From NCBI GenBank assembly GCA_947561715.1, contig OX387199.1:6949001-7013000 (forward strand): a stretch of DNA of 64,000 nt, in the 5' to 3' direction. The position numbers were made by a program, and so were the translations under genes. This document shows, piece by piece, positions 366-63,865 of the stretch (positions are counted from its first letter, which is position 1; each line of letters starts with the position of its first letter). The DNA comes from Ascidia mentula (taxonomy: Eukaryota > Chordata > Ascidiacea > Phlebobranchia > Ascidiidae). The notes under the pieces are model-generated. The model ran no database searches. It worked only from the letters and a program-made list of their open reading frames with translations, and was not told where the DNA came from.

Positions 366-1215
366 CTTGGCCCAGCTGCAGGCAACAGCAAAGCACGTGA
401 ACAAGCCAGACGCAAAAGCAAGTGACATGACGGCCGTGACATCGCCAATTTCATAATCGTGGATGCAGCAGTAAAAGAAAATTCCGCACACCATTTCCAA
501 GCCTGAAAATTTGCTTCAGAGTTGGAAAATTAAAGAGTTGTTTTGGAGTCAGTTGCTTTACCTGCAACGAACTTGACGGCACAGGCAGATTTCACGCAGC
601 TGCAGCATTGCAAGAACACGGAGAACAATAAAAGAACTAAGTAACCAATTCCAATGATTGAGAATGCAAGCTGTTCCCGAACCGGTATAACTGGATAAAA
701 GAAGATACGGTGGTGAAAAACATGAAGATTTGGCCACTTACGTTTTTTAAAATTATTGAAATGTGTTTTCATCATCAATTTAAAAAAAATCGTGGTATCC
801 GTAACAAGTTCACTAATTCCTCAATAAATATCACGTTGCTGATACCGTAACCGCAGTTTCATTTAGTAATGGCCGACATGAACATTTAAGCATTTATCTA
901 TACAGGATTTTTCAGTTTATAATTTTTAATTGGATACCTACATGGATCTGTGCGTGCCACGCTCTGCTTAAATATGCCAAACACCAAAAAGAACAAACTT
1001 AATGGTTCGCTGTTTCTCCAGGCTGGTACCACAAATCCAACCAAGATAAGCAGGTAGCTGAAAAACGAAAAGGTGCTGTCCAATATGCCGAAGCATTCAC
1101 CCCGAGACTTGCGGTTTTCCCCTTGTTTTGCTTCTGGTTGCTCGGCGTCACGGTCTGGTTGATTGGCGGGCACGTCTCCATTTGCTTCGTACGCTTGATT
1201 TTCCGGAGCGTGCAT
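366..1215 (-). CDS. M0: 5' three exons of a claudin-like multi-module membrane protein (continues off the left edge)
   Basis: Exons read on the minus strand: 942-1215 (ATG at 1215), 562-690 and 366-502. Phases are 0 to 1, 1 to 1 and 1 to 0, identical to M2 and M4, with equal lengths for the second and third exons (129 and 137 nt). The protein starts with a polar stretch of about 40 residues (MHAPENQAYEANGDV...), then a membrane segment ending VVPAW, a short extracellular loop with FLVFGIF, a second membrane segment (LAFSIIGIGYLVLLLF), and an exon with two more (LEMVCGIFFYCC... and ...GLFTCFAVACSWAK). This is the first four-helix module of the family; the others would lie left of base 1. Its first exon differs clearly from the near-identical M2 and M4 first exons, so it is an older paralogue. 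Splice sites were chosen by phase and by match to the paralogues. Confidence 0.68.
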
Positions 1216-10130: not shown

Positions 10131-10409
10131 TCACACAAGACAACATATGTAGCAAAACCTGTACAGAACAAGAAAAGGGTACCAAACAGAATTTCACAAC
10201 GGCAAATCGTACAATATAAGGCAATGTACGTGACAGTTTTCCGAAATACAACGATGACCCAAAAAAAATGAAAAATGGTGTTTTCAAATGCAGACCATGA
10301 CACGCTAAAATTGTCATTTTGACCATCTAAATAGGCAAAGAAATGTTTGTCGTATTTCGTAATCAAAAATGTTTGTATTCCTGTAGGCTTTGAGGTTGAC
10401 ATCTCGTTG

Positions 10410-10585
10410 CGGTATCCTGCACAGATGCCTGTCCTTCAACAGATGCCTGTCCTTCGACAAATGCGTCAAATGCCTGTCCTTCATCAAATGCCTGTCCTTC
10501 AACAGATGCCTGTCCTTCGACAAATGCGACAAATGCCTGTCCTTCATCAGATGCCTGTTCTTCGACAGGTGCCTGTTCTTCGACA
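10410..10585 (-). repeat. 18-bp coding minisatellite in the M1 tail
   Basis: An 18-bp unit encoding the hexapeptide pattern V/D-E-G/E-Q-A-S/F is repeated about eight times within the last exon of M1, with two 9-bp part-units (VAF, DAF). Copy number differs between paralogues: about nine units in M2 and M6, six in M4 and four to five in the M3 and M5 remnants. Because the period is divisible by three, other frames are open too, but only the minus-strand frame continues from the membrane exon. Confidence 0.8.
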
Positions 10586-12430
10586 GGTAACTGTACAGAT
10601 TTCTGTGGTGGAACAGAGGCTTCATTTTGCTCTGTGGGCGAGCAACACTTGGCCCTTAACCACTGGAATACAGATTTGCAAACATCCACAACGAAGTCCC
10701 ACAACAGTAGGACAACTAGAGACCCCAAGAAGTAAATAATCGTGGATACGAACGCCAACCAAAACGGGGCGTTCTTCGACCAAGTGCCTGGATCGACTCC
10801 AGTCTCTATGTCCAGCCAGAGTGAAGCAAAAGCGAAGCTGAAGAGACCACCTGCGCAGCATGAATTACGATGAAAACGTATATTGATAAAAGTAACCTTC
10901 GAGAAACATCTAATACTCTATATTAAATCGAAATGTTACTATTTGCACAAATCAGCTCAGGTTTTCAAATGCGGACATTTATATGTAATGGAAAACTATG
11001 TTTTTATGGTAAGTCCAAATATACCGGGGACAAGCGTACTTTTGATTATCTTTAAAACAAAAAGACATGATCGTGCAATATGGGCCTTACAAAATGCCTC
11101 ACCGCTTAACAGGACGAAGAACTTGGATGAAAACTGTACTTCTTTGCATGGCGGAGCGCAAAAACCGAGCACAATGAGCACAAGACTAATGAACCAGCAC
11201 GTCAACCACCCACAAAATATTACTCCTGAAAAGGCGTGCATCGAATGGCAGTGAGCACCTGAACAGGAAAATCAGTTGGAAAAAAACCGTAGAATTATAA
11301 AGTCAAAAACGTAGAAATGTTTTGATAATTTTGGCTTTAACCAGAGGTTTCCAATATATGCATATAGTGCATCGCAATCCATTAGTCCATTGTTTGAATG
11401 TTGTTTGGCCGTCGTAAGCTCACTTGCAAGTTTTGAACGAATTTTATATCTATAACAATCTGTGTGACCTTGTAGCTGTTGCATTAATAAAAAGTGAACA
11501 TCGAAAGCGAATTAGTCCTTACAAAAAGTCTGAAGAATTTCTGTGGTATATTTTGTTGGGGATGAGTACATCACTGGTTCATGAAAGTTCCTCTGCATTA
11601 GACTATTTTCTTCGCTATGAAAACAACGTTTTAACTTACTTCGTTTATACACAGGAATGTCTTCAATTATTTTCCAGCCAGGCAAACACACAGCTATCCA
11701 TTGAAATAGTGAACAAATGACAAAGAAGACGAATCCTGTCCGATTCCGAGCTGCTTCACTATCCGATAAAATTTGAAGAATTTTGTCCCCAACTTTAGTT
11801 TGTTCGCCATTGGCAAGGTCCACGTATCCTCCTGTCTTTTAGACAAATTTGGTTGTTAGGTACACCCACAATGTTTCAGTACATCCAAACAGGAACATTT
11901 TTACCCATGCAAAAACTCTCAATTACAGCGCTTGCTTAATTACAAGTGCACTTTTTTACATTTTTATTAGTTACATTACTTACATTTACCACCTGATACA
12001 GCTCCACGCTGGCTCCAGCAATACAACAGCATGACGCAAACATGGCACATGTTAAGCAGAGTGTCATATCAGCGATGTAAAGGTTGTATACAATCGAATA
12101 TACAATAGTGCAAATGAGGAACAAAAGGCCTGTAAAAAAAGGATCGAGTTAATCGACATTTTTGGATATTTTATGCAGTACATTTATGCGAATAAATAAA
12201 TCCATGTGTATTCTTGTAGGATTTCTAGGGCGATAAGAGAACGCCAATATAACATATACATATGTACGGAACAACTTTGCATAGAATTTGCAATCATAGT
12301 AAAGTATACTGTAACATAATAATTGATAATTAAATTCACAAAAATATAAGTACACAAATTTATATTTTGCAGCAAGTTAATGCAGCGTTGAAGCCACGGC
12401 TACTTATTTCTTTACACTTTTGTGCCAAGC

Positions 12431-12949
12431 AAAGAGGCCATTTTGAAAATAAAAGCCAAAGCTAAAATGCTGTTAATTATTAGTAAACGATTCGAACACT
12501 AACTGGGTTCATCATCAGTACTACAATGAGCGCATGCAAGAAAAGCGTCGGGGTAATAAAGGACTGAGCAGAAGGGAAACAGCACTTTACATCCAACACC
12601 AGCATAAACCAGCACTGAACGTGGATGACAGTTCCAAACCCCTTTACCTATTCTACATCTAGGTCCGTACTGCAGCCTGACACATTGCTAATGATGACGT
12701 CGCTGCTGTGCTTCCATGTTGTTGTCACGTGACATGCCTCTGGCTTGTTGCTCGTTGTTGCTGCTGCTGTTTCCCTTCTGCCTGCTCAGTCCTTTATTAC
12801 CCCGACGCTTTTCTTGCATGCGCTCATTGTAGTACTGATGATGAACCCAGTTAGTGTTCGAAACGTTTACTAATGATTAACAGCAATTTAGCTTTGGCTT
12901 TCATTTTCAAAGTTATCAACTCCAAATATTTTGCACCCAAAGAGGCCAT
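12431..12949. mobile_element. Foldback insertion in an M1 intron, with target-site duplication
   Basis: AAAGAGGCCAT flanks the insert on both sides (12431-12441 and 12939-12949). M4 (near 44640) and M6 (near 62275) have the uninterrupted site with one copy. The insert of about 497 bp has long inverted arms (about 12442-12583 and 12764-12911) around a 180-bp centre, plus a 27-nt unpaired tail on the right. Near the right end CTGATGA...GTTCGAAAC (12835-12864) forms a hairpin resembling a hammerhead core. No coding capacity. The class is uncertain: a foldback DNA transposon or a short terminal derivative of a Penelope-like element are both possible. Confidence 0.7.
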
Positions 12950-14765
12950 GTTCGGTAAATTTGAGGGGTGGAAACTATTTGTTTCACTTTAAGCCGAAGT
13001 GGTTGGAGTTGTTAGAAACTCCCTGTAAAGACCCTCATTCAGGTCACCAACATTTTGTTTACACACTGTGTTCACTTAAACCAACCAGTTGCAATTTTTC
13101 CGATGGAATAGAAACGTTTGGAAGAAAGCAATGTCCACATATTGTTTGTGTTGTTGGGTGCCTGTTTAAATAACAGTTTATCATGTTGAGAGATTACTTC
13201 CATTGGCTAGAGGCAAACATTATTTGGAATACATACTGATAAATATTATAAAATTCCAATTAATTTTGCGTGAAATGACAGTCAAACTTCATTAACCACG
13301 GAGATTAGAATGCTTGATAACGTTGTCCACAGGCATTGAAAAAAATCGTTAAAAAAGCTATTGCTGTGCAATTTAAATATAAGATACCTGTTGCACTACC
13401 GCATTGCCATTCGCGTTTGTTGGCGGACTGTGTATTTCAGCGATTGTTGAACAAAACGCCAGAAGTAATCGAGCAACAAGATAAAAAATGCCAACACCCA
13501 TCGTCATTCGCTTGGCATCTGGTTTTATATCTGTAAAATATATTGCTTAGGTTAAAAGGTGGTTAAAGCTGTTGACTTTGAATGAATTATATGAGTCTTG
13601 CTAGGAAACCTACCATCATTTGGTTCAAAGTTGGTTTCTTGGTAAACTGGTAAATAAGTTGGACAGGCCCCTATACGAGAAAGGGGTCAGGCGTCCGCAA
13701 ATCAGAAGGCTCTGATGTGTAGATGAATATCAAAATGGGCCCATGAACACTTTTGTTATCATTGAAACTTAGGGATTTCTACCGCAAAGTTTTGCAATCT
13801 CACATTATCTCCAAATAAAGTGACTTTAAACCGGCACTTTTTTTTGAAGGCCCCTGAGGTTATTATGAAATAATAGCATGGTAGTGGCTGTAAACACCGT
13901 TGTTGAGTCATCGCGCTTCAATTACAACTGTAACGGATAAACCTCAACAATATACATTTCAAACCCACTCACATTGTCCTGTGGATATGTTGCAGGGTCG
14001 GGTGCCGAACACATTGTAAAACATGCTGACTGGCTCCAAATTACGTCGAATCGGAACAAAGAAAACGGCGATTAGAACTGCTACCTCAGTAACATACAGC
14101 ACGTACCGAAGCAAATCAAACAGGTCCTCATTTGATAAAATTGTCTTAGTCATAAGAACAAGTTGGACAAGCAGAACGGCCCCATATAGACCGGCTGTTA
14201 CCCAGCCAAAGGTTAACGGCAGACCCGGTTGCAATGTGTTTTTGTCAATACCCTTGTATAAATCCGAGGTGAAGGCGGATATGGCGAATATATAGCCGCC
14301 ACCTGTAAAACCAGAAAGAGCTTAAACATCGTAAAAAGTAAAATACAAACGCTTACGAACTTACAGGTCATTATAAGTGTAAACTTGTAAGACCTTCGGA
14401 ACAACAAAGAAAGCCATTCTTTGCAATTACACACACCCTTTTCCCTTAAAATGTTTAGTAAGGCAAGAGCAACACTAACACAGGATAAGATGAACGTAGC
14501 AATCACTATTCCCGAAAATACCCTCGTGGTTTTGCGTTGACTTGCTAAAAAACAAAAGCTCAGTGAATAAGTGGTTAAAACAGAAGCTCAGTTATTGCAA
14601 AAGAATCCACATTTCCTCTTAGAACGCTTACGTTTCACTTCCACATTATTACATGGCAACTTCAGACGTAGTACGTCCTCGTATTATACGAACCTCGTAT
14701 TGTCAGAGCTCTTCTACAAACCAATTTAAAACTTTCTTAGGCGTCTGTTTAAGTTGGTCTGTCTG

Positions 14766-20674: not shown

Positions 20675-20931
20675 TTTATTTCACACAAGACAACATATAT
20701 AGCAAAACCTGTACAGAACAAGAAAAGTGTACCAAACAGAATTTCACAACGGCAAATCGTACAATATAAGGCAATGTACGTGACAGTTTTCCGAAATATA
20801 ACGATGACACAATAAAAAGTCAAAAATGGTGTTTTCAAATGCAGACCATGACACGCAAAAATTGTCATTTTGACCATCTAAATAGGCAAAGAAATGTTTG
20901 TCGTGTTTCGTAATCAAAAAGGTTTGTATTC

Positions 20932-23900
20932 CTAAAGGCTTTGAGGATGACATCTCGTTGCGGTATCCTGGACAGATGTCTGTCCTTCAACAGATGCCTG
21001 TCCTTCGACAAATGCCTGTCCTTCATCAGATACCTGTTTTTCGACAGATGTCTGTCCTTCAACAGATGCCTGTCCTTCGACAAATGCCTGTCCTTCATCA
21101 GATGCCTGTCCTTCAACAGATGCCTGTTCTTCGACAGGTGACTGTACAGATTTCTGTGGTGGAACAGAGGCTTCATTTTGCTCTGTGGGCGAGCAACACT
21201 TGGCCCTTAACCACTGGCATACAGATTTGCAAACATCCACAACGAAGTCCCACAACAGTAGGACAACTAGAGACCCCAAGAAGTAAATAATCGTGGATAC
21301 GAACGCCAACCAAAACGGGGCGTTCTTCGACCAAGTGCCTGGATCGACTCCAGTCTCTATGTCCAGCCAGAGTGAAGCAAAAGCGAAGCTGAAGAGACCA
21401 CCTGCGCAGCATGAATTACGATAAAAACGTATATTGATAAAAGTAACCTTCGAGAAACATCTAATACTCTATATTAAATCGAAATGTTACTATTTGCACA
21501 AATCAGCTCAGGTTTTCAAATGCGGACATTTATATGTAATGGAAAACTATGTTTTTATGGTAAGTCCAAATATACCGGGGACAAGCGTACTTTTGATTAT
21601 CTTTAAAACAAAAAGACATGATCGTGCAATATGGGCCTTACAAAATGCCTCACCGCTTAACAGGACGAAGAACTTGGATGAAAACTGTACTTCTTTGCAT
21701 GGCGGAGCGCAAAAACCGAGCACAATGAGCACAAGACTAATGAACCAGCACGTCAACCACCCACAAAATATTACTCCTGAAAAGGCGTGCATCGAATGGC
21801 AGTGAGCACCTGAACAGGAAAATCAGTTGAAAAAAAACCGTAGAATTATAAAGTCAAAAACGTAGAAATGTTTTGATAATTTTGGCTTTAACCAGAGGTT
21901 TCCAATATATGCATATAGTGCATCGCAATCCATTAGTCCATTGTTTGAATGTTGTTTGGCCGTCGTAAGCTCACTTGCAAGTTTTGAACGAATTTTATAT
22001 CTATAACAATCTGTGTGACCTTGTAGCTGTTGCATTAATAAAAAATGAACATCGAAAGCGAATTAGTCCTTACAAAAAGTCTGAAGAATTTCTGTGGTAT
22101 ATTTTGTTGGGGATGAGTACATCACTGGTTCATGAAAGTTCCTCTGCATTAGACTATTTTCTTCGCTATGAAAACAACGTTTTAACTTACTTCGTTTATA
22201 CACAGGAATGTCTTCAATTATTTTCCAGCCAGGCAAACACACAGCTATCCATTGAAATAGTGAACAAATGACAAAGAAGACGAATCCTGTCCGATTCCGA
22301 GCTGCTTCACTATCCGATAAAATTTGAAGAATTTTGTCTCCAACTTTAGTTTGTTCGCCATTGGCAAGGTCCACGTATCCTCCTGTCTTTTAGACAAATT
22401 TGGTTGTTAGGTACACCCACAATGTTTCAGTACATCCAAACAGGAACATTTTTACCCAAGCAAAAACTCTCAATTACAGCGCTTGCTTAATTACAAGTAC
22501 ACTTTTTTACATTTTTATTAGTTACATTACTTACATTTACCACCTGATACAGCTCCACGCTGGCTCCAGCAATACAACAGCATGACGCAAACATGGCACA
22601 TGTTAAGCAGAGTGTCATATCAGCGATGTAAAGGTTGTATACAATCGAATATACAATAGTGCAAATGAGGAACAAAAGGCCTGTAAAAAAAGGATCGAGT
22701 TAATCGACATTTTTGGATATTTTATGCAGTACATTTATGCGAATAAATAAATCCATGTGTATTCTTGTAGGATTTCTAGGGCGATAAGAGAACGCCAATA
22801 TAACATATACATATGTACGGAACAACTTTGCATAGAGTTTGCAATCATAGTAAAGTATACTGTAACATAATAATTGATAATTAAATTCACAAAAATATAA
22901 GTACACAAATTTATATTTTGCAGCAAGTTAATGCAGCGTTGAAGCCACGGCTACTTATTTCTTTACACTTTTGTGCCAAGCAAAGAGGCCATTTTGAAAA
23001 TAAAAGCCAAAGCTAAAATGCTGTTAATTATTAGTAAACGATTCGAACACTAACTGGGTTCATCATCAGTACTACAATGAGCGCATGCAAGAAAAGCGTC
23101 GGGGTAATAAAGGACTGAGCAGAAGGGAAACAGCACTTTACATCCAACACCAGCATAAACCAGCACTGAACGTGGATGACAGTTCCAAACCCCTTTACCT
23201 ATTCTACATCTAGGTCCGTACTGCAGCCTGACACATTGCTAATGATGACGTCGCTGCTGTGCTTCCATGTTGTTGTCACGTGACATGCCTCTGGCTTGTT
23301 GCTCGTTGTTGCTGCTGCTGTTTCCCTTCTGCCTGCTCAGTCCTTTATTACCCCGACGCTTTTCTTGCATGCGCTCATTGTAGTACTGATGATGAACCCA
23401 GTTAGTGTTCGAAACGTTTACTAATGATTAACAGCAATTTAGCTTTGGCTTTCATTTTCAAAGTTATCAACTCCAAATATTTTGCACCCAAAGAGGCCAT
23501 GTTCGGTAAATTTGAGGGGTGGAAACTATTTGTTTCACTTTAAGCCGAAGTGGTTGGAGTTGTTAGAAACTCCCTGTAAAGACCCTCATTCAGGTCACCA
23601 ACATTTTGTTTACACACTGTGTTCACTTAAACCAACCAGTTGCAATTTTTCCGATGGAATAGAAACGTTTGGAAGAAAGCAATGTCCACATATTGTTTGT
23701 GTTGTTGGGTGCCTGTTTAAATAACAGTTTATCATGTGGAGAGATTACTTCCATTGGCTAGAGGCAAACATTATTTGGAATATATACTGATAAATATTAT
23801 AAAATTCCAATTAATTTTGCGTGAAATGACAGTCAAACTTCATTAACCACGGAGATTAGAATGCTTGATAACGTTGTCCACAGGCATTGAAAAAAATCGT

Positions 23901-26900
23901 TAAAAAAGCTATTGCTGTGCAATTTAAATATAAGATACCTGTTGCACTACCGCATTGCCATTCGCGTTTGTTGGCGGACTGTGTATTTCAGCGATTGTTG
24001 AACAAAACGCCAGAAGTAATCGAGCAACAAGATAAAAAATGCCAACACCCATCGTCATTCGCTTGGCATCTGGTTTTATATCTGTAAAAGATATTGCTTA
24101 GGTTAAAAGGTGGTTAAAGCTGTTGACTTTGAATGAATTATATGAGTCTTGCTAGGAAACCTACCATCATTTGGTTCAAAGTTGGTTTCTTGGTAAACTG
24201 GTAAATAAGTTGGACAGGCCCCTATACGAGAAAGGGGTCAGGCGTCCGCAAATCACAAGGCTCTGATGTGTGGATGAATGTCAAAATGGGCCCATGAACA
24301 CTTTTGTTATCATTGAAACTTAGGGATTTCTACCGCAAAGTTTTGCAATCTCACATTATCTCCAAATAAAGTGGCTTTAAACCGGCACATTTTTTTCAAG
24401 GCCCCTGAGGTTATTATGAAATAATAGCATGGTAGTGGCTGTAAACACCGTTGTTGAGTCATCGCGCTTCAATTGCAACTGCAACGGATAAACCTTAACA
24501 ATATACATTTAAAACCCACTCACATTGTCCTGTGGATATGTTGCAGGGTCGGGTGCCGAACACGTTGTAAAACATGCTAACTGGCTCCAAATTACGTCGA
24601 ATCGGAACGAAGAAAACGGCGATTAAAACTGCTACCTCAGTAACATACAGCACGTACCGAAGCAAATCAAACAAGTCCTCATTTGATAAAATTGTCTTAA
24701 TCATAAGAACAAGTTGGACAAGCAGAACGGCCCCATATAGACCGGCTGTTACCCAGCCAAAGGTTAACGACGGACCCGGTTGCAATGTGTTTTTGTCAAT
24801 ACCCTTGTATAAATCCGAGGTGAAGGCGGATATGGCGAATATATAGCCGCCACCTGTAAAACCAGAAAGAGCTTAAACATCGTAAAAAGTAAAATACAAA
24901 CGCTTACGAACTTACAGGTCATTATAAGTGTAAACTTGTAAGACCTTCGGAACAACAAAGATAGCCATTCTTTGCAATTATACAAACCCTTTTCCCTCAA
25001 AATGTTTAGTAAGGCAAGAGCAACACTAACACAGGATAAGATGAACGTAGCAATCACTATTCCCGAAAATACCCTCGTGGTTTTGCGTTGACTTGCTAAA
25101 AAACAAAAGCTCAGTGAGAAGAGAGTAAAAATAGAAGCTCAGTTATTGCAAAAGAATCCACATTTCCTCTTAGAACGCTTACGTTTCACTTCCACATTAT
25201 CACATGGCAACTTCAGACGTAGTACTTTCTCGTATTATACGAACCTCGTATTGTCAGAGCTATTCTACAAACCAATTTAAAACTTTCTTAGGCGTCTGTT
25301 TAAGTTGGTCTGTCTGTTACTTGAACCTTTCTTCATCGGCATGCACCGATCAGTAGGCAGTGATGTAGCCTACAGCATATCGCGACACAAAACAGAAATA
25401 ACAAATGTTTCAACAAACGTCATTCAAGCAACTTTGCCAAATACCAACACTCTCAAAAGTCGCCATTTCCTACTTCAATAATTAATTGTTTTTATTGTAC
25501 CGCGGAATACTGGGGTAGGATATTATTTTGCTGTACGTCGATGCTCTTAACTTAACTGTAAAGGCGAGCAAAATAATGCAGCTATTCTTCTAACTGATTT
25601 GATTTTTTAAATCTCGCTCCTCGTCAGGAAATAGTGGCTAATCCAGCTATAGGCTGCAATGCCTGGGCTGCGAACCTAATGAAGCCTCTAACTGTTTACC
25701 GTGAGAAATGTGAAAATAAACTCCGACTTACCGACCTCGAATATCCGTGTTTTATTTGTGTTCCACCCAGGCAAGCAACAGGTGATCAAGGAAAAAATTA
25801 GGGAAATGACCAACATTACTAAAGTTGCGATTTCCCATTGTTGCTCCCAGGATTCCACGTATTCAGGAATTATGTCTTTTTGATCTGTGTTATCGAACCT
25901 CTGCCAGATATGAATTTTGTATTAAATAGATTCGACAGATTACCACTACTGATTTGCTTTGGGTGCAAAAAAAATCTTGGCGCATTGAAAAATGCTTTTG
26001 TTGGAAAACCAAATTACTTCAACTTTCAAGTAATTTTGAATTTGGCTGCACAGGAAATTCAAGTTCATGAAAATTGAAATATTGGAAAAACATTAATTAT
26101 AATTGGCCAGAGGCTTATTACCACAAAAATACAAATATACAACACAGTCATTTAATATTGCGAATGTAAGACAATGACAAACCGATGTCCAGATTGTACA
26201 ATAGGATTAAAGGGCAGACCCAACAATAATTGTTACGTTTTTATTGTGCCAGAAGAACAGACTATTAAATTGTAATATAGGTTTGGGCGATACAGCGGCG
26301 TTAAACCCCTTGAAGGTGTATTTATCACAAATCATATGACACTGTCATAGCTTTCAACAGAAAAAAATATGACCCATGCTTACTGCTTGCGAAAACGCGC
26401 AAATACTAACAACACAGCGTTGTAAGTAATGTAATACGAACGTATAGGACGCAATATTTACAACAACAAACTCTGAGGTACAAATGTTTGAATAATTTTT
26501 AAAGCAACCATTACGTCAATAACACAGAACGACTTACCGATGCCCACGTGCAGACCACAGCAAAGCAAGAAAGTAGACCTGATACGAATGACATTCCCAT
26601 GGCAAGGGTGACGTCACCGATGTGAAAGTCGTGGAAGCAGCAGTAAAAGAAAACGCCGCAAACCATTCCAAGGCCTGGAATAAATACAAGTTTAGCTGCT
26701 AATTGGTTTGAAGTTCGTGGATAGCTTTTGGAATGTCGCATTCGAGGACTGCTTTAATCATTACTAATGATTTTTTTCTATTTTCTGTTTGACTTCGTAT
26801 GAATCTCGTCGAACAATGAGATCAATGGAAAACAACGTCTTTATTCATTAACTTTGGTCAGCGGTTGCGCATGCTCGGAGCTGAAACATATTTTTGAAAT

Positions 26901-27570
26901 AGCTGATGTTACTTTGAGGTGCCGATTGTGACTTTTGGGGTCATTTAACTTTTTGAAAAATATACAGGTGCGTTCAAGCGCCAGTCAGAGCAAGCAAACA
27001 ATGCACACCAGCAACCAGTTTCGTCAGGAGTCCAAGTTTCCAACAACGGCACGAACGAAAAATCCATGAGATCGACAGAAGCACAATGTATGATATTCCA
27101 ACTATTGAAAACGCTATTTGATCTTCAATGCGGATGTCTGAAAATAAAATGGGTTGTGAGGATTTTGATAATGTTTGTCGAAATTAAACGTTGCCAAATA
27201 TTGGTATGCGAATAAAACAGGTAATGTCAATTTATTATTGTATTTCTTTATCCCAGCACGTGGAAATAAAAACATTCAACAGATATACAGAACCGTATAC
27301 AGATTACCTTTCAATGAAACACGACTTACATGGATCTTTTCCCGCTGCGCTGTGTTTGAAAATGCCAAACACCATGTAGAACATACTTAGTGGTTCAGTG
27401 CCCTTCCATGACGGAACGAGAAATGCAGAAAGTGCGAAAATATACCCTAAAACGCTAAAAACGGTATCCAAAATACCGAAGCGCTCAGCCAAATTACGGC
27501 TATTCCGTCCGTTTGCAGTTCTATTTCCGTTTTCATTTCCGTTTGCTTCAAGGCCTTGATCTCCAGCCAT
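20932..27570 (-). CDS. M2: claudin-like four-module membrane protein, full set of 12 exons
   Basis: Minus-strand exons: 27330-27570 (ATG), 27009-27137, 26538-26674, 25732-25900, 24916-25095, 24524-24853, 23939-24081, 22535-22680, 22191-22386, 21975-22019, 21642-21809 and 20932-21401. The structure is that of M4 (see there). The seventh exon is 143 nt, not 144, so a transcript containing it changes frame, while one that skips it stays in frame (2211 nt, 736 aa) and loses one membrane segment of module 3. M2 may therefore work only by skipping, use an unseen splice site, or be damaged. The acidic tail has about nine hexapeptide units and the stop comes directly after PQSL. Exons 1-5 are nearly identical to M4; exons 5-12 are nearly identical to M1, so the gene is a mosaic. 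Confidence 0.66.
22982..23500. mobile_element. Foldback insertion in an M2 intron (same event as in M1)
   Basis: Same insert, same AAAGAGGCCAT target duplication and same position relative to the exons as in M1, offset 10551. It was inherited by duplication, not inserted twice. Confidence 0.7.
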
Positions 27571-36955: not shown

Positions 36956-37343
36956 TTTATTTCACACAAGACAACATATATAGCAAAACCTGTACAGAAC
37001 AAGAAAAGTGTACCAAACAGAATTTCACAACGGCAAATCGTAGAATATAAGGCAGTTTACGAGACAGTTTTCCGAAATATACCGATGACACAACAAAAAA
37101 TCGAAAATGGTGTTTTCAAATGCAGACCATGACACGCAAAAATTGTCATCTTGACCAACTAAATAGGCAAAGAAATGTTTGTTGTTTTTCGTAATCAAAA
37201 ATGTTTGTATTCCTAAAGGCTTTGACGTTGACATCTCGTTGCGATATCCTGGACAGATGCCTGTCCTTCAACAGATGCCTGTCCTTCAACAAATGCGACA
37301 AATGCCTGTCGTTCATCAGATGCCTGTTCTTCGACAGGTGCCT
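36956..37343 (-). pseudogene. M3: remnant of the 3' end of a claudin-like gene
   Basis: Only the polyadenylation signal (36956-36961), the 3' untranslated region, a stop codon (37213-37215) and four to five units of the acidic hexapeptide repeat remain (to about 37343). The membrane-coding exons are gone; the sequence changes abruptly to a retroelement fossil inside the repeat. The M5 remnant has the same junction, so it predates that duplication. Confidence 0.75.
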
Positions 37344-41000: not shown

Positions 41001-41344
41001 TTGTGCTCGGTGCTCCAAAAGCTGACTACAAAGCTGTGGCTCCTCCTAACTCCTTCATCTACGCTCAGGACTTCCCAACACCTGAAGATCTTGTAAAATA
41101 TTTGGAATACTTGAACAGAAACAACAAGGAATATAAAAAGTATCTCAAGTGGATGACTCTGGACATATCGGAAATGCCAGGTTTAAAAAAAGAAACTGGG
41201 TTCTGCAAATTATGTTCGTATGTAAAGAACCTCAAAAAAAATGACGACGGTACGTTGTTGCCAGTCTCCACATCTTTGTCTCGCCATAACTTTTCTGTTC
41301 AATCTTGGTTTTTAGGAAAAGAAAATAAAGCATGTCTTTCTTGA
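38025..41344 (+). CDS. FUT-4: alpha-1,3-fucosyltransferase (GT10), six exons
   Basis: Exons: 38025-38171, 39222-39266, 39339-39437, 39767-39840, 40320-40436 and 40630-41344 (398 aa). The anchor region is the most divergent part (MACTATYKLFSFLIIFILFT), shared with FUT-6, while the catalytic lobe is like the others. Residues that differ include Leu for Val in NCHLNQG and Pro in EMPGLKK. The upstream region is replaced by retroelement-derived sequence, so expression may differ from FUT-1 to -3. No break is seen in the frame. Confidence 0.92.
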
Positions 41345-42619: not shown

Positions 42620-45600
42620 TCAAAAATGTTTGTATTCCTGTAGGCTTTGAGGTTGACATCTCGTTGCGGTATCCTGGACAGATGCCTGTCCTTCAACAGA
42701 TGCCTGTCCTTCGACAAATGCGTCAAATGACTGTCCTTCATCAGATGCCTGTCCTTCGACAAATGCCTGTCCTTCATCAGATGCCTGTTCTTCGACAGGT
42801 GACTTTACAGATATCTGTAGTGGAACAGAGGTTTCATTTTGCTCTGTGGGCGAGCAACACTTGGCCCTTAACCACTGGCATACAGATTTGCAAACATCCA
42901 CAACGAAGTCCCACAACAGTAGGACAACTAGAGACCCCAAGAAGTAAATAATCGTGGATACGAACGCCAACCAAAACGGGGCGTTCTTCGACCAAGTGCC
43001 TGGATCGACTCCAGTCTCTATGTCCAGCCAGAGTGAAGCAAAAGCGAAGCTGAAGAGACCACCTGCGCAGCATGAATTACGATAAAAACGTATATTGATA
43101 AAAGTAACCTTCGAGAAACATCTAATACTCTATATTAAATCGAAATGTTATTATTTGCACAAATCACCTCAGGTTTTCACATGCAGACATTTATATGTAA
43201 TGGAAAATTATGTTTTTATGGTAAGTCCAAATATACCGAGGACAAGCCAACTTTTGATTATCTTTAAAACAAAAAGACATGATCGTGCAATATGGGCCTT
43301 ACAAAATGCCTCACCGCTTAACAGGACGAAGAACTTGGATGAAAACTGTACTTCTTTGCATGGCGGAGCGCAAAAACCGAGCACAATAAGCACAAGACTA
43401 ATGAACCAGCACGTCAACCACCCACAAAATATTACTCCTGAAAAGGCGTGCATCGAATGGCAGTGAGCACCTGAACAGGAAAATCAGTTGGAAAAAAACC
43501 GAAGAATTATAAAGTGAAAAACGTAGAAATGTTTTGATAATTTTGGCTTTAACCAGAGGTTTCCAATATATGCATATAGTGCATAGCAATCCATTAGTCC
43601 ATTGTTTGAATGTTGTTTGGCCGTCGTAAGCTCACTTGCAAGGTTTGAACGAATTTTATATCTGTAACAATCTGTGTGACCTTGTAGCTGTTGCATTAAT
43701 AAAAAATAAACATCGAAAGCGAATTAGTCCCTACAAAAAGTTTGAAGAATTTCTGTGGTATGTTTTGTTGGGGATGAGTGCATCACTGGTTCATGAAAGT
43801 TCCTCTGCATTAGACTATTTTCTTCGCTATGAAAACAACGCTTTAACTTACTTCGTTTATGCACAGGGATATCTTCAATCATTTTCCAGCCAGGCAACAA
43901 CACAGCTATCCATTGAAATAGTGAACAAATGACAAAGAAGACAAATCCTGTCCGATTCCGAGCTGCTTCACTATCCGATAAAATTTGAAGAATTTTGTCT
44001 CCAACTTTAGTTTGTTCGTCATTGGCAAGGTCCACGTCTCCATTTGTCTTTCAGACAAATTTGAAAAGTTGTTAGGTACACCCACAATGTTTCAGTACAT
44101 CCAAACAGGAACATTTTTACCCAAGCAAAAACTCTTAATTACAGCGCTTGCTTAATTACAAGTGCACTTTTTTGCATCTCTGTGTGTTACATTACTTACA
44201 TTTACCACCTGATACAGCTCCACGCTGGCTCCAGCAATACAACAACATGCCGCAAACATGGCACATGTTAAGCAGAGTGTCATATCAGCGATGTAAAGAT
44301 TGTATACAATCGAATATACAATAGTGCAAGTGAGGAACAAAAGGCCTGTTGTAAAAGGTTCGAGTTAATCGACATGTTTGGAAAGTTTGTTCAGTACAAT
44401 TATGCGAATAAATAAATCCATGTGTATTCTTGTAGGATTTCTAGGGCGAACGCCAATATAAGATATACATCTGTACGGTACAACGTTGTATAGAATTTGC
44501 AATCATAGTAAAGTATACTGTAACATAATAATTGATAATTAAATGTACACAAATATAAGTGCACAAATTTATATTTTGCAGTAAGTTAATGCAGCGTTGA
44601 AGCCACGGCTACTTATTTCTTTACACTTTTGTGCCAAGCAAAGAGGCCATTTTCGGTAAATTTGAGGGGTGGAAACTATTTTTTTCGCTTTAAGCCGAAG
44701 TGGTTGGAGTTGTTAGAAACTCCCTGTAAAGACCCTCATTAAGGTCACCAACATTTTGTTTACACACTGTGTTCACTTAAACCAACCAGTTAGAATTTTT
44801 CCGATGGAATAGAAACGTTTGGAAGAAAGCAATGTCCACATATTGTTTGTGTTGTTGGGTGCCTGTTTAAGTAACAGTTTAATCATGAGGAGAGATTACT
44901 TCCATTGGCTAGAGGCAAACATTATTGGTAATACATACTGATAAATATTTTAACATTCCAACCAATTTTGCGTGAAATGACAGTCAAACTTCATTAACCA
45001 CGGAGATTAGAATGCTTGATAACGTTGTCCATAGGCATTGAAAAAATCGTTTAAAAAAAGCTATTGCTGCGCAATTTAAATATAAGATACCTGATGCACT
45101 TACCGCATTGCCATTCGCGTTTGTTGGCGGACTGTGTATTTCAGCGATTGTTGAACAAAACGCCAGAAGTAATCGAGTAACAAGATAAAAAATGCCAACA
45201 CCCATCGTCATTCGCTTGGCATCTGGTTTTATATCTGTAAAATATATTGCTTAGGTTAAAAGGTGGTTAAAGCTGTTGATTTTGAATGAATTATATGAAT
45301 CTTGCTAGGAAACCTACCATCATTTGGTTCAAAGTTGATTTCTTGGTAAACTGGTAAATAAGTTGGACAGGCCCCTATACGAGAAAGGCGTCAGGCGTCC
45401 GCAAAGCACAAGGCTCTGATGTGTGGATGAATATCAAAATGGGCCCATGAACACTTTTGTTATCATTGAAACTTAGGGATTTCTACCGCAAAGTTTTGCA
45501 ATCTCACATTATCTCCAAATAAAGTGGCCTTAAACCGGCACATTTTTTCCAAGGCCCCTGAGGTTATTATGTAATATTAGCATGGTAGTGGCTGTAAACA

Positions 45601-48600
45601 CCGTTGTTGAGTCATCGCGCTTCAATTGCAACTTTAACGGATAAACCTTAACAATATACATTTCAAACACACTCACATTGTCCTGTGGATATGTTGCATG
45701 GTCGGGTGCCGAACACATTGTAAAACATGCTGACTGGCTCCAAATTACGTCGAATCGGGACGAAGAAAACGGCGATTAGAACTGCTACCTCGGTAACATA
45801 CAGCACGTACCGAAGCAAATCAAACAAGTCCTCATTTGATAAAATTGTCTTAATCATAAGAACAAGCTGGACAAGCAGAACGGCCCCATATAGACCGGCT
45901 GTTACCCAGCCAAAGGTTAACGACGGACCCGGTTGCAATGTGTTTTTGTCAATACCCTTGTATAAATCCGAGGTGAAGGCGGATATGGCGAATATATAGC
46001 CGCCACCTGTAAAACCAGAAAGAGCTTAAACATCGTAAAAAGTAAAATACAAACGCTTACGAACTTACAGGTCATTATAAGTGTAAACTTGTAAGACCTT
46101 CGGAACAACAAAGAAAGCCATTCTTTGCAATTATACAAACCCTTTTCCCTCAAAATGTTTAGTAAGGCAAGAGCAACACTAACACAGGATAAGATGAACG
46201 TAGCAATCACTATTCCCGAAAATACCCTCGTGGTTTTGCGTTGACTTGCTAAAAAACAAAAGCTCAGTGAGAAGAGAGTAAAAATAGAAGCTCAGTTATT
46301 GCAAAAGAATCCACATTTCCTCTTAGAACGCTTACGTTTCACTTCCACATTATCACATGGCAACTTCAGACGTAGTACTTTCTCGTATTATACGAACCTC
46401 GTATTGTCAGAGCTATTCTACAAACCAATTTAAAACTTTCTTAGGCGTCTGTTTAAGTTGGTCTGTCTGTTACTTGAACCTTTCTTCATCGGCATGCACC
46501 GATCAGTAGGCAGTGATGTAGCCTACAGCATATCGCGACACAAAACAGAAATAACAAATGTTTCAACAAACGTCATTCAAGCAACTTTGCCAAATACCAA
46601 CACTCTCAAAAGTCGCCATTTCCTACTTCAATAATTAATTGTTTTTATTGTACCGCGGAATACTGGGGTAGGATATTATTTTGCTGTACGTCGATGCTCT
46701 TAACTTAACTGTAAAGGCGAGCAAAATAATGCAGCTATTCTTCTAACTGATTTGATTTTTTAAATCTCGCTCCTCGTCAGGAAATAGTGGCTAATCCAGC
46801 TATAGGCTGCAATGCCTGGGCTGCGAACCTAATGAAGCCTCTAACTGTTTACCGTGAGAAATGTGAAAATAAACTCCGACTTACCGACCTCGAATATCCG
46901 TGTTTTATTTGTGTTCCACCCAGGCAAGCAACAGGTGATCAAGGAAAAAATTAGGGAAATGACCAACATTACTAAAGTTGCGATTTCCCATTGTTGCTCC
47001 CAGGATTCCACGTATTCAGGAATTATGTCTTTTTGATCTGTGTTATCGAACCTCTGCCAGATATGAATTTTGTATTAAATAGATTCGACAGATTACCACT
47101 ACTGATTTGCTTTGGGTGCAAAAAAAATCTTGGCGCATTGAAAAATGCTTTTGTTGGAAAACCAAATTACTTCAACTTTCAAGTAATTTTGAATTTGGCT
47201 GCACAGGAAATTCAAGTTCATGAAAATTGAAATATTGGAAAAACATTAATTATAATTGGCCAGAGGCTTATTACCACAAAAATACAAATATACAACACAG
47301 TCATTTAATATTGCGAATGTAAGACAATGACAAACCGATGTCCAGATTGTACAATAGGATTAAAGGGCAGACCCAACAATAATTGTTACGTTTTTATTGT
47401 GCCAGAAGAACAGACTATTAAATTGTAATATAGGTTTGGGCGATACAGCGGCGTTAAACCCCTTGAAGGTGTATTTATCACAAATCATATGACACTGTCA
47501 TAGCTTTCAACAGAAAAAAATATGACCCATGCTTACTGCTTGCGAAAACGCGCAAATACTAACAACACAGCGTTGTAAGTAATGTAATACGAACGTATAG
47601 GACGCAATATTTACAACAACAAACTCTGAGGTACAAATGTTTGAATAATTTTTAAAGCAACCATTACGTCAATAACACAGAACGACTTACCGATGCCCAC
47701 GTGCAGACCACAGCAAAGCAAGAAAGTAGACCTGATACGAATGACATTCCCATGGCAAGGGTGACGTCACCGATGTGAAAGTCGTGGAAGCAGCAGTAAA
47801 AGAAAACGCCGCAAACCATTCCAAGGCCTGGAATAAATACAAGTTTAGCTGCTAATTGGTTTGAAGTTCGTGGATAGCTTTTGGAATGTCGCATTCGAGG
47901 ACTGCTTTAATCATTACTAATGATTTTTTTCTATTTTCTGTTTGACTTCGTATGAATCTCGTCGAACAATGAGATCAATGGAAAACAACGTCTTTATTCA
48001 TTAACTTTGGTCAGCGGTTGCGCATGCTCGGAGCTGAAACATATTTTTGAAATAGCTGATGTTACTTTGAGGTGCCGATTGTGACTTTTGGGGTCATTTA
48101 ACTTTTTGAAAAATATACAGGTGCGTTCAAGCGCCAGTCAGAGCAAGCAAACAATGCACACCAGCAACCAGTTTCGTCAGGAGTCCAAGTTTCCAACAAC
48201 GGCACGAACGAAAAATCCATGAGATCGACAGAAGCACAATGTATGATATTCCAACTATTGAAAACGCTATTTGATCTTCAATGCGGATGTCTGAAAATAA
48301 AATGGGTTGTGAGGATTTTGATAATGTTTGTCGAAATTAAACGTTGCCAAATATTGGTATGCGAATAAAACAGGTAATGTCAATTTATTATTGTATTTCT
48401 TTATCCCAGCACGTGGAAATAAAAACATTCAACAGATATACAGAACCGTATACAGATTACCTTTCAATGAAACACGACTTACATGGATCTTTTCCCGCTG
48501 CGCTGTGTTTGAAAATGCCAAACACCATGTAGAACATACTTAGTGGTTCAGTGCCCTTCCATGACGGAACGAGAAATGCAGAAAGTGCGAAAATATACCC

Positions 48601-48723
48601 TAAAACGCTAAAAACGGTATCCAAAATACCGAAGCGCTCAGCCAAATTACGGCTATTCCGTCCGTTTGCAGTTCTATTTCCGTTTTCATTTCCGTTTGCT
48701 TCAAGGCCTTGATCTCCAGCCAT
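42620..48723 (-). CDS. M4: intact claudin-like four-module membrane protein, 12 exons
   Basis: Minus-strand exons: 48483-48723 (ATG), 48162-48290, 47691-47827, 46885-47053, 46069-46248, 45677-46006, 45091-45234, 44200-44345, 43852-44047, 43636-43680, 43303-43470 and 42620-43062. Total 2328 nt, in frame, 775 aa. I read four claudin/PMP22-like modules of four helices each. Module 1 (residues 32-169) has VPSW after helix 1 and FGIF in the loop. Module 2 (about 193-338) has CCLPGW. Module 3 (about 348-490) has FFVP, then VFGTRPCNISTGQ, close to the claudin loop pattern GLW-x2-C...STGQ. Module 4 (about 526-680) has LLPGW and two loop cysteines. An acidic hexapeptide-repeat tail follows (about 710-775). 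Modules 1/3 and 2/4 align, with matching intron phases. Exon 6 carries the end of module 2 and the start of module 3, so the modules are physically fused. Claudin-type proteins shape cell junctions; the role here is unknown. The weakest calls are the tenth-exon acceptor (CTACAAG) and the second-exon donor (GTGTGC). Confidence 0.72.
42675..42799 (-). repeat. 18-bp coding minisatellite in the M4 tail (about six units)
   Basis: Shortest tail among the full-length copies, with one 9-bp part-unit (DAF). Encodes VEEQAS, DEGQAF, VEGQAS, DEGQSF and similar units. Confidence 0.8.
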
Positions 48724-52475: not shown

Positions 52476-52760
52476 CACGTGCTAGAGGAAGATTACTCAC
52501 GTGCTAGAGGAAGAGGCAGCAAACATTGCAGAAGACACAACAATTACAACAAATTATTGTAAACTGCTGGAAAGATTGGAAAACGTGAGTTGACAAGCAG
52601 TGTCAACGTTCCCCTTTATTCTTTTGTGCCCCTCCGTGTTTCAGTGTAATTCACTTGTTGCGTTATACCTGATGAAGTCCCGCCGCATGGCAGACGAAAC
52701 GTCGTAAGAATACCGTACGTTTATGCCAGAAGATCAGTACATTTTCAATTTTACCAAGCT
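52476..52760. mobile_element. Right half of the foldback element at the FUT-5 deletion junction
   Basis: The centre and right arm of the FUT-3 intron-5 element are present; the left arm is missing. At the junction CACGTGCTAGAGGAAGA occurs twice, separated by a few bases, a pattern typical of template switching during repair. The CTGATGA...GAAACGTCGTA hairpin of the right arm is kept. Confidence 0.65.
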
Positions 52761-52855
52761 AGCTGGCTAGAAATTTCAGAAACACTTATTTCTTCACCTT
52801 ATATATTGTTTCTCAATCAAATTTTGTTCGGTTTGTGTCACGTGACTCCTTTCAG

Positions 52856-59966: not shown

Positions 59967-60223
59967 TTTATTTCACACAAGACAACATATATAGCAAAAC
60001 CTGTACAGAACAAGAAAGGTGTACCAAACAGAATTTCACAACGGCAAATCGTACACTATAAGGCAATGTACGTGACAGTTTTCCGAAATATAACGATGAC
60101 ACAATAAAAAATCAAAAATGGTGTTTTCAAATGCAGACCATGACACGCAAAAATTGTCATTTTGACCATCTAAATAGGCAAAGAAATGTTTGTCGTGTTT
60201 CGTAATCAAAAAGGTTTGTATTC

Positions 60224-63200
60224 CTAAAGGCTTTGAGGATGACATCTCGTTGCGGTATCCTGGACAGATGTCTGTCCTTCAACAGATGCCTGTCCTTCGA
60301 CAAATGCCTGTCCTTCATCAGATGCCTGTTTTTCGACAGATGTCTGTCCTTCAACAGATGCCTGTTTTTCGACAAATGCCTGTCCTTCATCAGATGCCTG
60401 TCCTTCAACAGATGCCTGTTCTTCGACAGGTGACTGTACAGATTTCTGTGGTGGAACAGAGACTTCATTTTGCTCTGTGGGCGAGCAACACTTGTCCCTT
60501 AACCACTGGCATACAGATTCGTAAACATCTACAACCAAGTCCCACAACAGTAGGACAACTAGAGACCCCAAGAAGTAAATAATCGTGGATACGAACGCCA
60601 ACCAAAATGGGGTGTTCTTCGACCAAGTGTCTGGATCGACTCCAGTCTCTATGTCCAGCCAGAGTGAAGCAAAAGCGAAGCTGAAGAGACCACCTGCGCA
60701 GCATGAATTACGATAAAAACGTATATTGATAAATGTAACCTTCGAGAAACATATATTACTCTATATTAAATCGAAATGTTATTATTTGCACAAATCAGCT
60801 CAGAATTTCAAATGCGGACATTTATATGTAATGGAAAATTATGTTTTTTATGGTAAGTCCAAATATACCGGGGACAAGCGTACTTTTGATTATCTTCAAA
60901 ACATAAAGACATGATCGTGCCATATGGGCCCTACAAAATGCCTCACCGCTTAACAGGACGAAGAACTTGGATGAAAACTGTACTTCTTTGCATGGCAGAG
61001 CGCAAAAGCCGAGCACAATAAGCACAAGACTAATGAACCAGCACGTCAACCACCCACAAAATATTACTCCTGAAAAGGCGTGCATCGAATGGCAGTGAGC
61101 ACCTGAAAAGGAAAATCAGTTGAAAAAAACCGTAGAATTATAAAGTCAAAAACGTAGATAATTTTCGATAATTTTGGCTTTAACCAGAGGTTTCCAATAT
61201 ATGCATATAGTGCGTCGCGATCCATTCGTCCATTGTTTGAATGTTGTTTGGCCGTCGTAAGCTCACTTGCAAGTTTTGAACGAATTTTATATCTATAACA
61301 ATCTGTGTGATCTTGTAGCTGTTGCATTAATAAAAAATGAACATCGAAAGCGAATTAGTCCCTACAAAAAGTTTGAAGAATTTCTGTGGTATGTTTTGTT
61401 GGGGATGAGTGCATCACTGGTTCATGAAAGTTCCTCTGCATTAGACTATTTTCTTCGCTATGAAAACAACGCTTTAACTTACTTCGTTTATGCACAGGGA
61501 TATCTTCAATCATTTTCCAGCCAGGCAAACACACAGCTATCCATTGAAATAGTGAACAAATGACAAAGAAGACAAATCCTGTCCGATTCCGAGCTGCTTC
61601 ACTATCCGATAAAATTTGAAGAATTTTGTCTCCAACTTTAGTTTGTTCGTCATTGGCAAGGTCCACGTCTCCATTTGTCTTTCAGACAAATTTGAAAAGT
61701 TGTTAGGTACACCCACAATGTTTCAGTACATCCAAACAGGAAAATTTTTACCCAAGCAAAAACTCTTAATTACAGCGCTTGCTTAATTACAAGTGCACTT
61801 TTTTGCATCTCTGTGTGTTACATTACTTACATTTTCCACCTGATACAGCTCCACGCTGGCTCCAGCAATACAACAACATGCCGCAAACATGGCACATGTT
61901 AAGCAGAGTGTCATATCAGCGATGTAAAGATTGTATACAATCGAATATACAATAGTGCAAATGAGGAACAAAAGGCCTGTTGTAAAAGGTTCGAGTTAAT
62001 CGACATTTTTGGAAAGTTTGTTCAGTACAATTATGCGAATAAATAAATCCATGTGTATTCTTGTAGGATTTCTAGGGCGAACGCCAATATAAGATATACA
62101 TCTGTACGGTACAACGTTGTATATAATTTGCAATCATAGTATAGTATACTGTAACATAATAATTGATAATTAAATGTACAAAAATATAAGTGCACAACTT
62201 TATGTTTTGCAGCAAGTAAATGCAGCGTTGAAGCCACGGCTACTTATTTCTTTACACTTTTGTGCCAAGCAAAGAGGCCATGTTCGGTAAATTTGAGAGG
62301 TGGAAACTATTTTTTTCACTTTAAGCCGAAGTGGTTGGAGTTGTTAGAAACTCCCTGTAAAGACCCTCATTGAGGTCACCAACATTTTGTTTACACACTG
62401 TGTTCACTTAAACCAACCAGTTGCAATTTTTCCGATGGAATAGGAACATTTGGAAGAAAGAAATGTCCATATCTTGTTTGTGTTGTTGGGTGCCTGTTTA
62501 AATAACAGTTTAATCATGAGGAGAGATTACTTCCATTGGCTAGAGGCAAACATTATTTGGAATACATACTGATAAATATTTTAAAATTCCAACCAATTTT
62601 GCGTGAAATGACAGTCAAACTTTATTAAATGCTTGATAACGTTGTCCACAGGCATTGAAAAAAATCGTTAAAAAAAAGCTATTGCTGCGCAATTTAAATA
62701 TAAGATACCTGTTGCACTACCGCATTGCCATTCGCGTTTGTTGGCGGACTGTGTATTTCAGCGATTGTTGAACAAAACGCCAGAGGTAGTCGAGCAACAA
62801 GATAAAAAATTCCAACACACATCGTCATTCGCTTGGCATCTGGTTTTATATCTGTAAAATATATTGCTTAGGTTGAAAGGTGGTTAAAGCTGTTGATTTT
62901 GAATGAATTATATGAATCTTGCTAGGAAACCTACCATCATTTGGTTCAAAGTTTGTTCTTGGTAAACTGGTAAATAAGTTGGACAGGCCCCTATACGAGA
63001 AAGGGGTCAGGCGTCCGCAAAGCACAAGGCTCTGAGGTGTGGATGAATATCAAAATGGGCTCATGAACACTTTTGTTAGCATTGAAACTTAGGGAGTTCT
63101 ACCGCAAAGTTTTGCAATCTCACATTATCTCCAAATGAAGTAGCCTTAAAGCGGCACTTTTTTTTTCAAGGCCCCTGAGGTTATTATGTAATAATAGCAT

Positions 63201-63865
63201 GGTAGTGGCTGTAAACACCGTTGTTGAGTCATCGCGCTTCAATAGCAACTGTAACGGATAAACCTTAACAATATACATTTCAAACCAACTCACATTGTCC
63301 TGTGGATATGTTGCAGGGTCGGTTGCCGAACACGTTGTAAAACATGCTGACTGGCTCCAAATTACGTCGAATCGGAACAAAGAAAACGGCGATTAGAACT
63401 GCTACCTCAGTAACATACAGCACGTACCGAAGCAAATCAAACAAGTCCTCATTTGATAAAATTGTCTTAATCATAAGAACAAGCTGGACAAGCAGAACGG
63501 CCCCATATAGACCGGCTGTTACCCAGCCAAAGGTTAACGGCAGACCCGGTTGCAATGTGTTTTTGTCAATACCCTTGTATAAATCCGAGGTGAAGGCGGA
63601 TATGGCGAATATATAGCCGCCACCTGTAAAACCAGAAAGAGCTTAAACATCGTAAAAAGTAAAATACAAACGCTTACGAACTTACAGGTCATTATAAGTG
63701 TAAACTTGTAAGACCTTCGGAACAACAAAGAAAGCCATTCTTTGCAATTAAACACATCCTTTTCCCTCAAAATGTTTAGTAAGGCAAGAGCAACACTAAC
63801 ACAGGATAAGATGAACGTAGCAATCACTATTCCCGAAAATACCCTCGTGGTTTTGCGTTGACTTG
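60224..63865 (-). CDS. M6: claudin-like multi-module gene, 3' eight exons (cut by window end)
   Basis: Minus-strand exons: 63686-63865, 63294-63623, 62709-62851, 61831-61976, 61483-61678, 61267-61311, 60935-61102 and 60224-60693. Phases match M4. The third of these is 143 nt as in M1 and M2, so including it changes frame and skipping it keeps frame. The intron beyond 63865 reads like M1 rather than M2 or M4, so M6 may also be 5'-truncated just past the window. The tail has about nine hexapeptide units, some with Lys (VEKQAS), and ends PQSL. The donor after 60935 is GTAGGG, weaker than the GTAAGG of the others. Confidence 0.6.

Follow-up and report, generated by a model that had tools for sequence, protein, structure and literature searches.

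A gene predicted to chain four claudin-like modules as a duplicated pair in the ascidian Ascidia mentula

A claudin, on the current understanding, is a single four-helix unit that has to meet others of its kind before strands can be built. Whether a genome can encode such units already joined in one chain is the question raised by a gene in a 64,000-nucleotide (nt) stretch of DNA from Ascidia mentula (GenBank assembly GCA_947561715.1, contig OX387199.1, positions 6,949,001 to 7,013,000), hereafter the window, which lies within a 23-Mb contig (C52) of a 196-Mb genome. On contig C79 the COX1 frame stays open under the ascidian mitochondrial code, and 13 of 16 aligned AGR codons fall where human COX1 has Gly; the host is therefore a tunicate. 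A preliminary description, drawn from the letters of the window, read the gene as 12 exons joined in frame into 775 amino acids (aa), with about 16 membrane helices in four claudin-like modules. Our analysis indicates that this is very probably one gene with four modules, arranged as a duplicated pair.

The gene, here copy C of a tandem array (A to H) with further paralogs I, J and K outside the array, occupies positions 48723 to 42620 on the minus strand. Its 11 exons, separated by GT-AG introns, are in frame and encode 756 aa, so that the strand, coordinates and in-frame joining first described were retained and the exon and residue counts were revised. Splice sites were set using the reading frame, the GT-AG rule and comparison with paralogs, and the exons are presumably joined into one message. 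A donor for exon 2 at 48153 was rejected, as it puts copy F out of frame, and 48162 works for C, F and G; the Pfam scan of full-length C and the first PDB search ran on the version using 48153, which is three residues longer. A hydropathy scan of C, G and H found 16 hydrophobic segments in C, as anticipated, and 17 in G and H, where a weak extra segment (1.16 and 1.06) falls within the first loop of module 1. Introns follow exons 1 to 10 of C in phases 1,1,0,1,1,1,1,0,1,1, and one lies within helix 3 of every module. The features of copy C are as follows.

48483..48723, minus strand: exon 1; start codon, module 1 (A type) helix 1 and first loop; phase 1 donor GTAAGT
48162..48290, minus strand: exon 2; module 1 helix 2 and N-terminal half of helix 3; donor matched in copies F and G
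47691..47827, minus strand: exon 3; remainder of module 1 helix 3, and helix 4
46885..47053, minus strand: exon 4; linker, module 2 (B type) helix 1 (LPGW) and start of first loop
46069..46248, minus strand: exon 5; remainder of module 2 first loop, helix 2 and N-terminal half of helix 3
45677..46006, minus strand: exon 6; remainder of module 2 helix 3, second loop and helix 4; 14-residue linker; module 3 helix 1 and first loop
45696..45698, minus strand: Cys389 codon; module 3 first loop, invariant in five paralogs (position counted by hand)
45091..45234, minus strand: exon 7; module 3 helix 2 and N-terminal half of helix 3; ends 1 nt short in A, B, D and E
44200..44345, minus strand: exon 8; remainder of module 3 helix 3, and helix 4
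43852..44047, minus strand: exon 9; linker, module 4 (B type) helix 1 (LPGW) and start of first loop
43315..43470, minus strand: exon 10; remainder of module 4 first loop, helix 2 and N-terminal half of helix 3
43460..43462, minus strand: Cys561 codon; module 4 first loop, invariant in five paralogs (position counted by hand)
42620..43062, minus strand: exon 11; remainder of module 4 helix 3, second loop (TGVDPGTWS) and helix 4; tail and stop
42678..42798, minus strand: tandem repeat of an 18-bp unit in the tail; each unit encodes six residues like EGQASV, and the total length varies among copies

Could this model be two adjacent A-B genes mistakenly joined? Either half forms a complete A-B unit, as a merger would have it. 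Exon 6 speaks against that reading. As first described, this exon bridges modules 2 and 3 and makes the fusion genomic, and it is present and open in the DNA over 330 nt, a run equalled in only 0.28% of 5000 base shuffles. Its length is 330 nt in all 10 gene copies measured (A to J), its product is 73% identical between C and G and 64% between C and H, and across C, G and H no exon is under tighter constraint: its proportion of nonsynonymous differences (pN) is 0.18-0.25 and that of synonymous differences (pS) 0.59-0.73. For the whole protein the same three genes give pN 0.35-0.41 and pS 0.73-0.78, with synonymous sites near saturation, and pN is below pS in each exon. Whole-genome searches with G and I placed exon 6, among the matches listed, at 12 places on contig C52 only (two near 4.77 Mb, eight at 6.94-7.04 Mb and two at 7.36-7.37 Mb), and it is open across the module boundary in all 12; ten of these come from the genome search, and J and K were read from their own gene models, the search alignment having overrun the exon into a stop. 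The same queries matched only those three regions of C52 and no relative with one or two modules, at tblastn-level sensitivity and among the matches listed. Gene models of I (one of the two genes at 4.77 Mb) and J (7.37 Mb) have four modules and 12 exons each, because exon 7 is split, and K (7.36 Mb), joined by eye, agrees with this architecture. The four modules are thus kept in G, H, I and J, and any two of C, G, H, I and J are 31-46% identical. Exon phases, constraint and the paralogs in 12 places agree in supporting one gene of joined four-helix modules, as originally proposed, and we regard a mistaken merger as extremely improbable.

The four modules are not four of a kind. Profiles of six sequences per module (K included) matched module 1 to module 3 (E 1.3e-15) and module 2 to module 4 (E 2e-11); module 1 also matched module 4 (E 1.4e-4 over 118 columns), and comparisons of module 1 with 2, 3 with 2 and 3 with 4 were not significant. 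Pooled A against pooled B modules gave E 4.8e-4, or 0.0014 with K added. The phase series 1,1,0,1,1 recurs in both halves, which chance would produce in 5 of 45 arrangements and which is a weak point alone. At the level of these sequence profiles, the module order is therefore shown to be best put as a duplicated pair, A-B-A-B, rather than as four alike claudin-like modules. The motifs described as recurring four times are real and fall into the same two kinds: VP[SA]W or VPI..EPVSM in modules 1 and 3, and PGW in modules 2 and 4. This arrangement probably arose when a gene for one A-B pair was duplicated head to tail and the copies fused, and exon 6 now links the end of the first pair's B module to the beginning of the second pair's A module.

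Are the modules related to claudins? E-values from single hhalign comparisons are rough, and scores from shuffled profiles and from other families therefore weigh more. Our main claudin profiles contain sequences entered by hand, and a separate, tool-supplied set used only claudin sequences taken from the tools. B modules matched claudins at E 9.5e-6 (score 40.1, five paralogs; 150 shuffles reach at most 24.8) and, with six paralogs, at E 1.1e-4 (0 of 60 shuffles as high). Against claudin plus PMP22 they gave E 5.1e-4 with five paralogs and 1.2e-4 with six (0/60); against the tool-supplied claudins, E 4.5e-5 and then 9.1e-6 (0/60); and against a PMP22-type profile alone, E 0.003. Over six profile pairs, no shuffle scored as high wherever shuffles were run (0/40, 0/150 and 0/60). 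The match is collinear over helices 1-4 for the claudin profile and over helices 2-4 for the tool-supplied set. A modules matched claudin plus PMP22 at E 6.4e-5 (score 34.8; 150 shuffles at most 23.7); adding K brought this to E 0.0032 (score 24.9, 0/60 shuffles as high), a weakening that we count against the A link. Their match to a PMP22-type profile alone was E 0.0067, then 0.079.

A module-by-module profile search, proposed in the preliminary description, gave E values from 4.3e-4 to 0.017 against claudin plus PMP22 (8e-4, 4.3e-4 and 0.0038 for modules 1 to 3, no shuffle as high; 0.017 for module 4, one shuffle). Against claudins alone, module 4 (E 0.0028, no shuffle as high), module 2 (0.0087, one) and module 1 (0.022, 2 of 40) did better than module 3, which was weak (0.31, 22 shuffles as high). 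The whole-chain profile was also weak: its best E was 0.0029 against claudin plus PMP22, where the top two placements were in register with modules 2 and 1, and 0.013 against claudins alone, where two of the three best placements aligned a module's helix 1 to claudin helix 1 and one did not. The claudin likeness claimed at the outset thus stands for modules 2 and 4 by profile comparison, and for modules 1 and 3 weakly, through the broad claudin plus PMP22 profile only. On these sequence comparisons the B modules in all likelihood descend from the claudin superfamily, and the A modules likely do.

A different reading is that the protein is an unrelated polytopic transporter or channel that resembles claudins only by its hydrophobic pattern. 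Several results weigh against a claudin origin and in this direction. No module of C, G, H, I or J (20 in all), nor the full C protein, reached a Pfam cut-off, and no array exon was among 51 matches of a genome search with PF00822 (60 candidates scored). Below the cut-off, the unrelated models DUF6442, DUF4231 and T4SS_CagC (E 0.0015-0.0047) came ahead of Claudin_3 (E 0.02). No claudin appeared among the PDB search matches, and the sole PDB matches of the A profile were to SLC37A4 (E 0.4 or worse). A modules match claudins alone poorly (E 0.036 with 1/40 shuffles as high, then 0.095 with 10/60), as they do the tool-supplied claudins (E 0.098, then 0.19 with 15/60), and some four-helix windows of this family taken out of register outscore the 24.9 that is the most they reach with six paralogs. 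Sixteen helices with a two-fold internal repeat would also suit a transporter. What argues against it is that the match of B modules to claudins is collinear from helix 1 to helix 4 and above all shuffles, at scores of 30-40 compared to 15.6-26.4 for the six out-of-register windows. Three other membrane families also scored low: A and B modules reach 10-16 against tetraspanin, connexin and synaptophysin profiles, B modules taken alone reach 10-15 there compared to 34-40 against claudin-type profiles, and claudin profiles themselves score 20-23 against tetraspanins. Few helix positions are invariant. We therefore consider an unrelated transporter or channel improbable. AlphaFold, given exon 6 alone with four copies from the window, returned three helices at a predicted local distance difference test (pLDDT) score of 50.3.

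If the modules share ancestry with claudins, are they claudins? The strict signature W-GLW-C-C is absent from the first loop of all 20 modules, as is GLW. A Trp follows helix 1 in 13 of 20 (10/10 B modules, 3/5 of module 1, in C, G and H, and 0/5 of module 3), as PGW in 6 of the 10 B modules. Of the 20 modules, only module 1 of H carries the relaxed pattern W, G[LIV][WFY]-x2-C-x(8,10)-C, a tally matched in 8 of 2000 shuffles. In four of five paralogs (C, G, H and I), module 1 shows GIF at the position of the claudin GLW, an outcome seen in none of 2000 residue shuffles; as the paralogs are related, that count is not a probability. Module 1 of H carries W followed by G-I-F-x2-C-x9-C, and J has C-x8-C without GIF; C-x9-C is the claudin cysteine spacing, and this remnant is consistent with a claudin disulphide lost in the other paralogs. 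Further features tell against a claudin in the usual sense. First loops in C are 25-26 aa in modules 2 and 4 and 36-37 aa in the A modules, compared to about 50 aa in claudins, and the short loops of modules 2 and 4 argue against an ordinary claudin strand. The outer loops of these two modules are presumably too short for the claudin beta-sheet. The C-terminal YV that forms the claudin PDZ ligand is not common to the family, as C, G, H, I and J end in KHF, NRV, EMQ, NDI and NDE. An ordinary claudin is rejected by signature and Pfam; without a Pfam match at cut-off and without strict W-GLW-C-C, the modules are better regarded as claudin relatives than as claudins. Ordinary claudin-family genes are also present in the genome. 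One of them, with GLW-x2-C, lies about 60 kb past the end of the window (locus L029, C52:7073203-7073361), and its exon's Pfam match is below cut-off.

Which face of the protein matters? An even number of helices per module would leave all four modules sitting the same way round in the membrane. With loop sides assigned from the helices of C and the orientation of claudins, invariant residues over five paralogs number 59 of 184 in claudin-extracellular loops, 30 of 304 in helices and 7 of 171 in cytosolic parts, tail excluded (outside versus inside, Fisher P 1e-12, a descriptive value as neighbouring sites are not independent and sums were made by hand). Mean identity follows the same order, at 53%, 33% and 24%. 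Six of the seven glycosylation sequons between helices in C, G and H fall in claudin-extracellular loops (reassigned by hand). Less favourable are one sequon of H in a cytosolic loop and three more in the termini (two in C, one in G), and lysine plus arginine in C are nearly equal on both sides, so that charge does not settle the orientation. By analogy with claudins, and from the sequons, the strongly conserved loops would face outward from the cell surface. The only invariant cysteines in outer loops are Cys389 (module 3) and Cys561 (module 4); Cys591, also invariant, lies in a cytosolic loop, and K carries cysteines at both outer places (by eye). We speculate that Cys389 and Cys561 form a disulphide between the outer loops of modules 3 and 4, replacing claudin's own.

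What might such a protein do? The reading we favour, on which our confidence is evenly poised, is a claudin-like A-B-A-B tetramer, covalently pre-joined and working at its outer face. Four same-way-round units in one chain would fix the neighbours that claudins find by diffusion, and the business end would be the outer face, where loops are strongly conserved and cytosolic loops and tail are not. Claudin strands have been modelled as antiparallel double rows with side-by-side contacts (passages of PMC8305272 and PMC9557151). The mostly absent cysteine pair, the short B loops and the lack of a common PDZ ligand argue against a simple copy of such a strand; an inter-module disulphide and alternating A and B outer faces would be a different solution. 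It could act where epithelial cells touch one another or the tunic; such a role at junctions or contacts, of which the pre-assembled junction strand of the preliminary description would be one form, is put forward tentatively. Tunicate gut and epidermis are reported to have tight junctions (in a passage of PMC8618301), and tunicates to have claudin orthologs (in a passage of PMC11203038). A fuller and rather doubtful version would make this a tunicate-lineage invention, a covalent A-B-A-B tetramer locked by a disulphide that links modules 3 and 4. It would build junction or tunic-contact strands in a preset order, in place of the free polymerisation of separate claudins, and would belong to a family varying at its outer face.

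The same ancestry could also have led to a non-junctional surface chaperone, receptor or channel partner whose modules grip a partner laterally. PMP22, TARP and GSG1L proteins are models for this kind of role. The first loops of A modules in C are nearer in length to PMP22 than to claudin, GLW is absent, the cysteine pair is missing in most modules and the genome's ordinary claudin-family genes could do the sealing; a partner-binding role like that of PMP22 or TARPs fits nearly as well. Its weakness is that the outer loops are the most conserved parts, and not the helices that would grip a partner, and as a whole we judge this alternative less likely. The pre-joined tetramer working at its outer face remains our preferred reading.

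The tandem array has eight members, six near-identical copies and two diverged; A, B, C and D lie inside the window, G partly, and E, F and H outside. The members in the window other than C are as follows.

20914..27570, minus strand: copy B; all 11 exons, exon-7 frameshift
10363..14544, minus strand: copy A; exons 5-11 only, exon-7 frameshift
60206..63865, minus strand: copy D; exons 5-11 only, exon-7 frameshift
366..1215, minus strand: exons 1-3 of copy G; diverged, open, extending outside the window

Such a list invites the view that the array consists mostly of decaying copies, with C itself on the way out. Four of the eight (A, B, D and E) carry damage inside their modules, a point that also tells against a working tetramer: relative to C and F, exon 7 ends 1 nt short in all of them, which puts module 3 out of frame. 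A and D are without exons 1-4, and F is open until two stops in the tail. Between the recent copies C and F, the ratio of nonsynonymous to synonymous rates (dN/dS) is about 0.5, with few differences per exon, so that recent constraint may be weaker. Against decay, C is fully open, as are G and H, and the older comparison of C, G and H is strongly constrained. We give the decay of copy C very little credence. The common exon-7 difference sits at 23939-24081, 13388-13530 and 62709-62851, plus copy E outside the window, which suggests spread by duplication or gene conversion.

Other features of the array and its relatives stand beside these genes. The 18-bp repeat encodes a tail rich in glutamine and acidic residues and is found also at 20971-21145 and 60263-60437, with detached pieces at 37253-37323 and 54884-54954; a sub-threshold Cementoin match of the tail (E 0.00066, 19.7 bits against a cut-off of 27) falls on the six-residue repeat. 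In J, the reading frame of exon 8 continues into a long repeat of ESGTVVTKE type, and the interval between exons 8 and 9 of I holds a long stretch of simple repeat. Fucosyltransferase-type genes of family GT10, on the plus strand, interleave the array at 8205-9125, 18856-19656, 35018-35938, 40544-41344, 52650-53570 and 58177-58977. The one at 40544 matches PF00852 (E 2.4e-47) and the other five were assigned by closely similar translation; these and the four-module genes seem to have been amplified together. Upstream of G, positions 1382-1515 are 100% identical over 134 bp to 48867-49000 upstream of C, though G and C are otherwise diverged; the query stopped at 49000, so the match may be longer. 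An Rfam scan of the window gave no match.

A natural four-unit chain, kept despite strong divergence among paralogs, would offer fixed stoichiometry and order to study and would be a natural precedent for engineered claudin chains. Tunicates are relevant here as invertebrate chordates with reported tight junctions (a passage of PMC8618301). Among the matches listed, no multi-claudin protein was found in the open-licence PMC literature by title and start of abstract.

How, then, does the protein compare with known systems? Transporters with internal repeats share the sixteen helices and the two-fold internal repeat; here the repeats are four-helix units facing the same way, and loops are conserved more than helices. 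Claudin_3 proteins (PF06653) and Clc-like proteins (PF07062) have one unit each; theirs were the sole claudin-type Pfam models to surface among the module scans, far short of the curated cut-offs. Claudin_3 was matched below cut-off in two of six B modules (best E 0.02), with two weak matches elsewhere in a genome search, and Clc-like in one of six B modules (E 0.37) and one of six A modules (E 4.3), also below cut-off. To PMP22/EMP proteins the A modules are similar in first-loop length, and their best score is with the claudin plus PMP22 profile; the differences are four units per chain and a cysteine pair that is mostly absent. The comparison with claudins (PF00822) rests on the four-helix unit, the Trp after helix 1, GIF in module 1 where claudins have GLW, and the end of the second loop and helix 4 of module 2, which in alignment resemble claudin G-x-(A/S)-L-x-x-G-W. 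Unlike a claudin, which is a single four-helix unit, the chain has four such units, as the 16 hydrophobic segments of C indicate, and it keeps a claudin-spaced cysteine pair only in module 1 of H and J.

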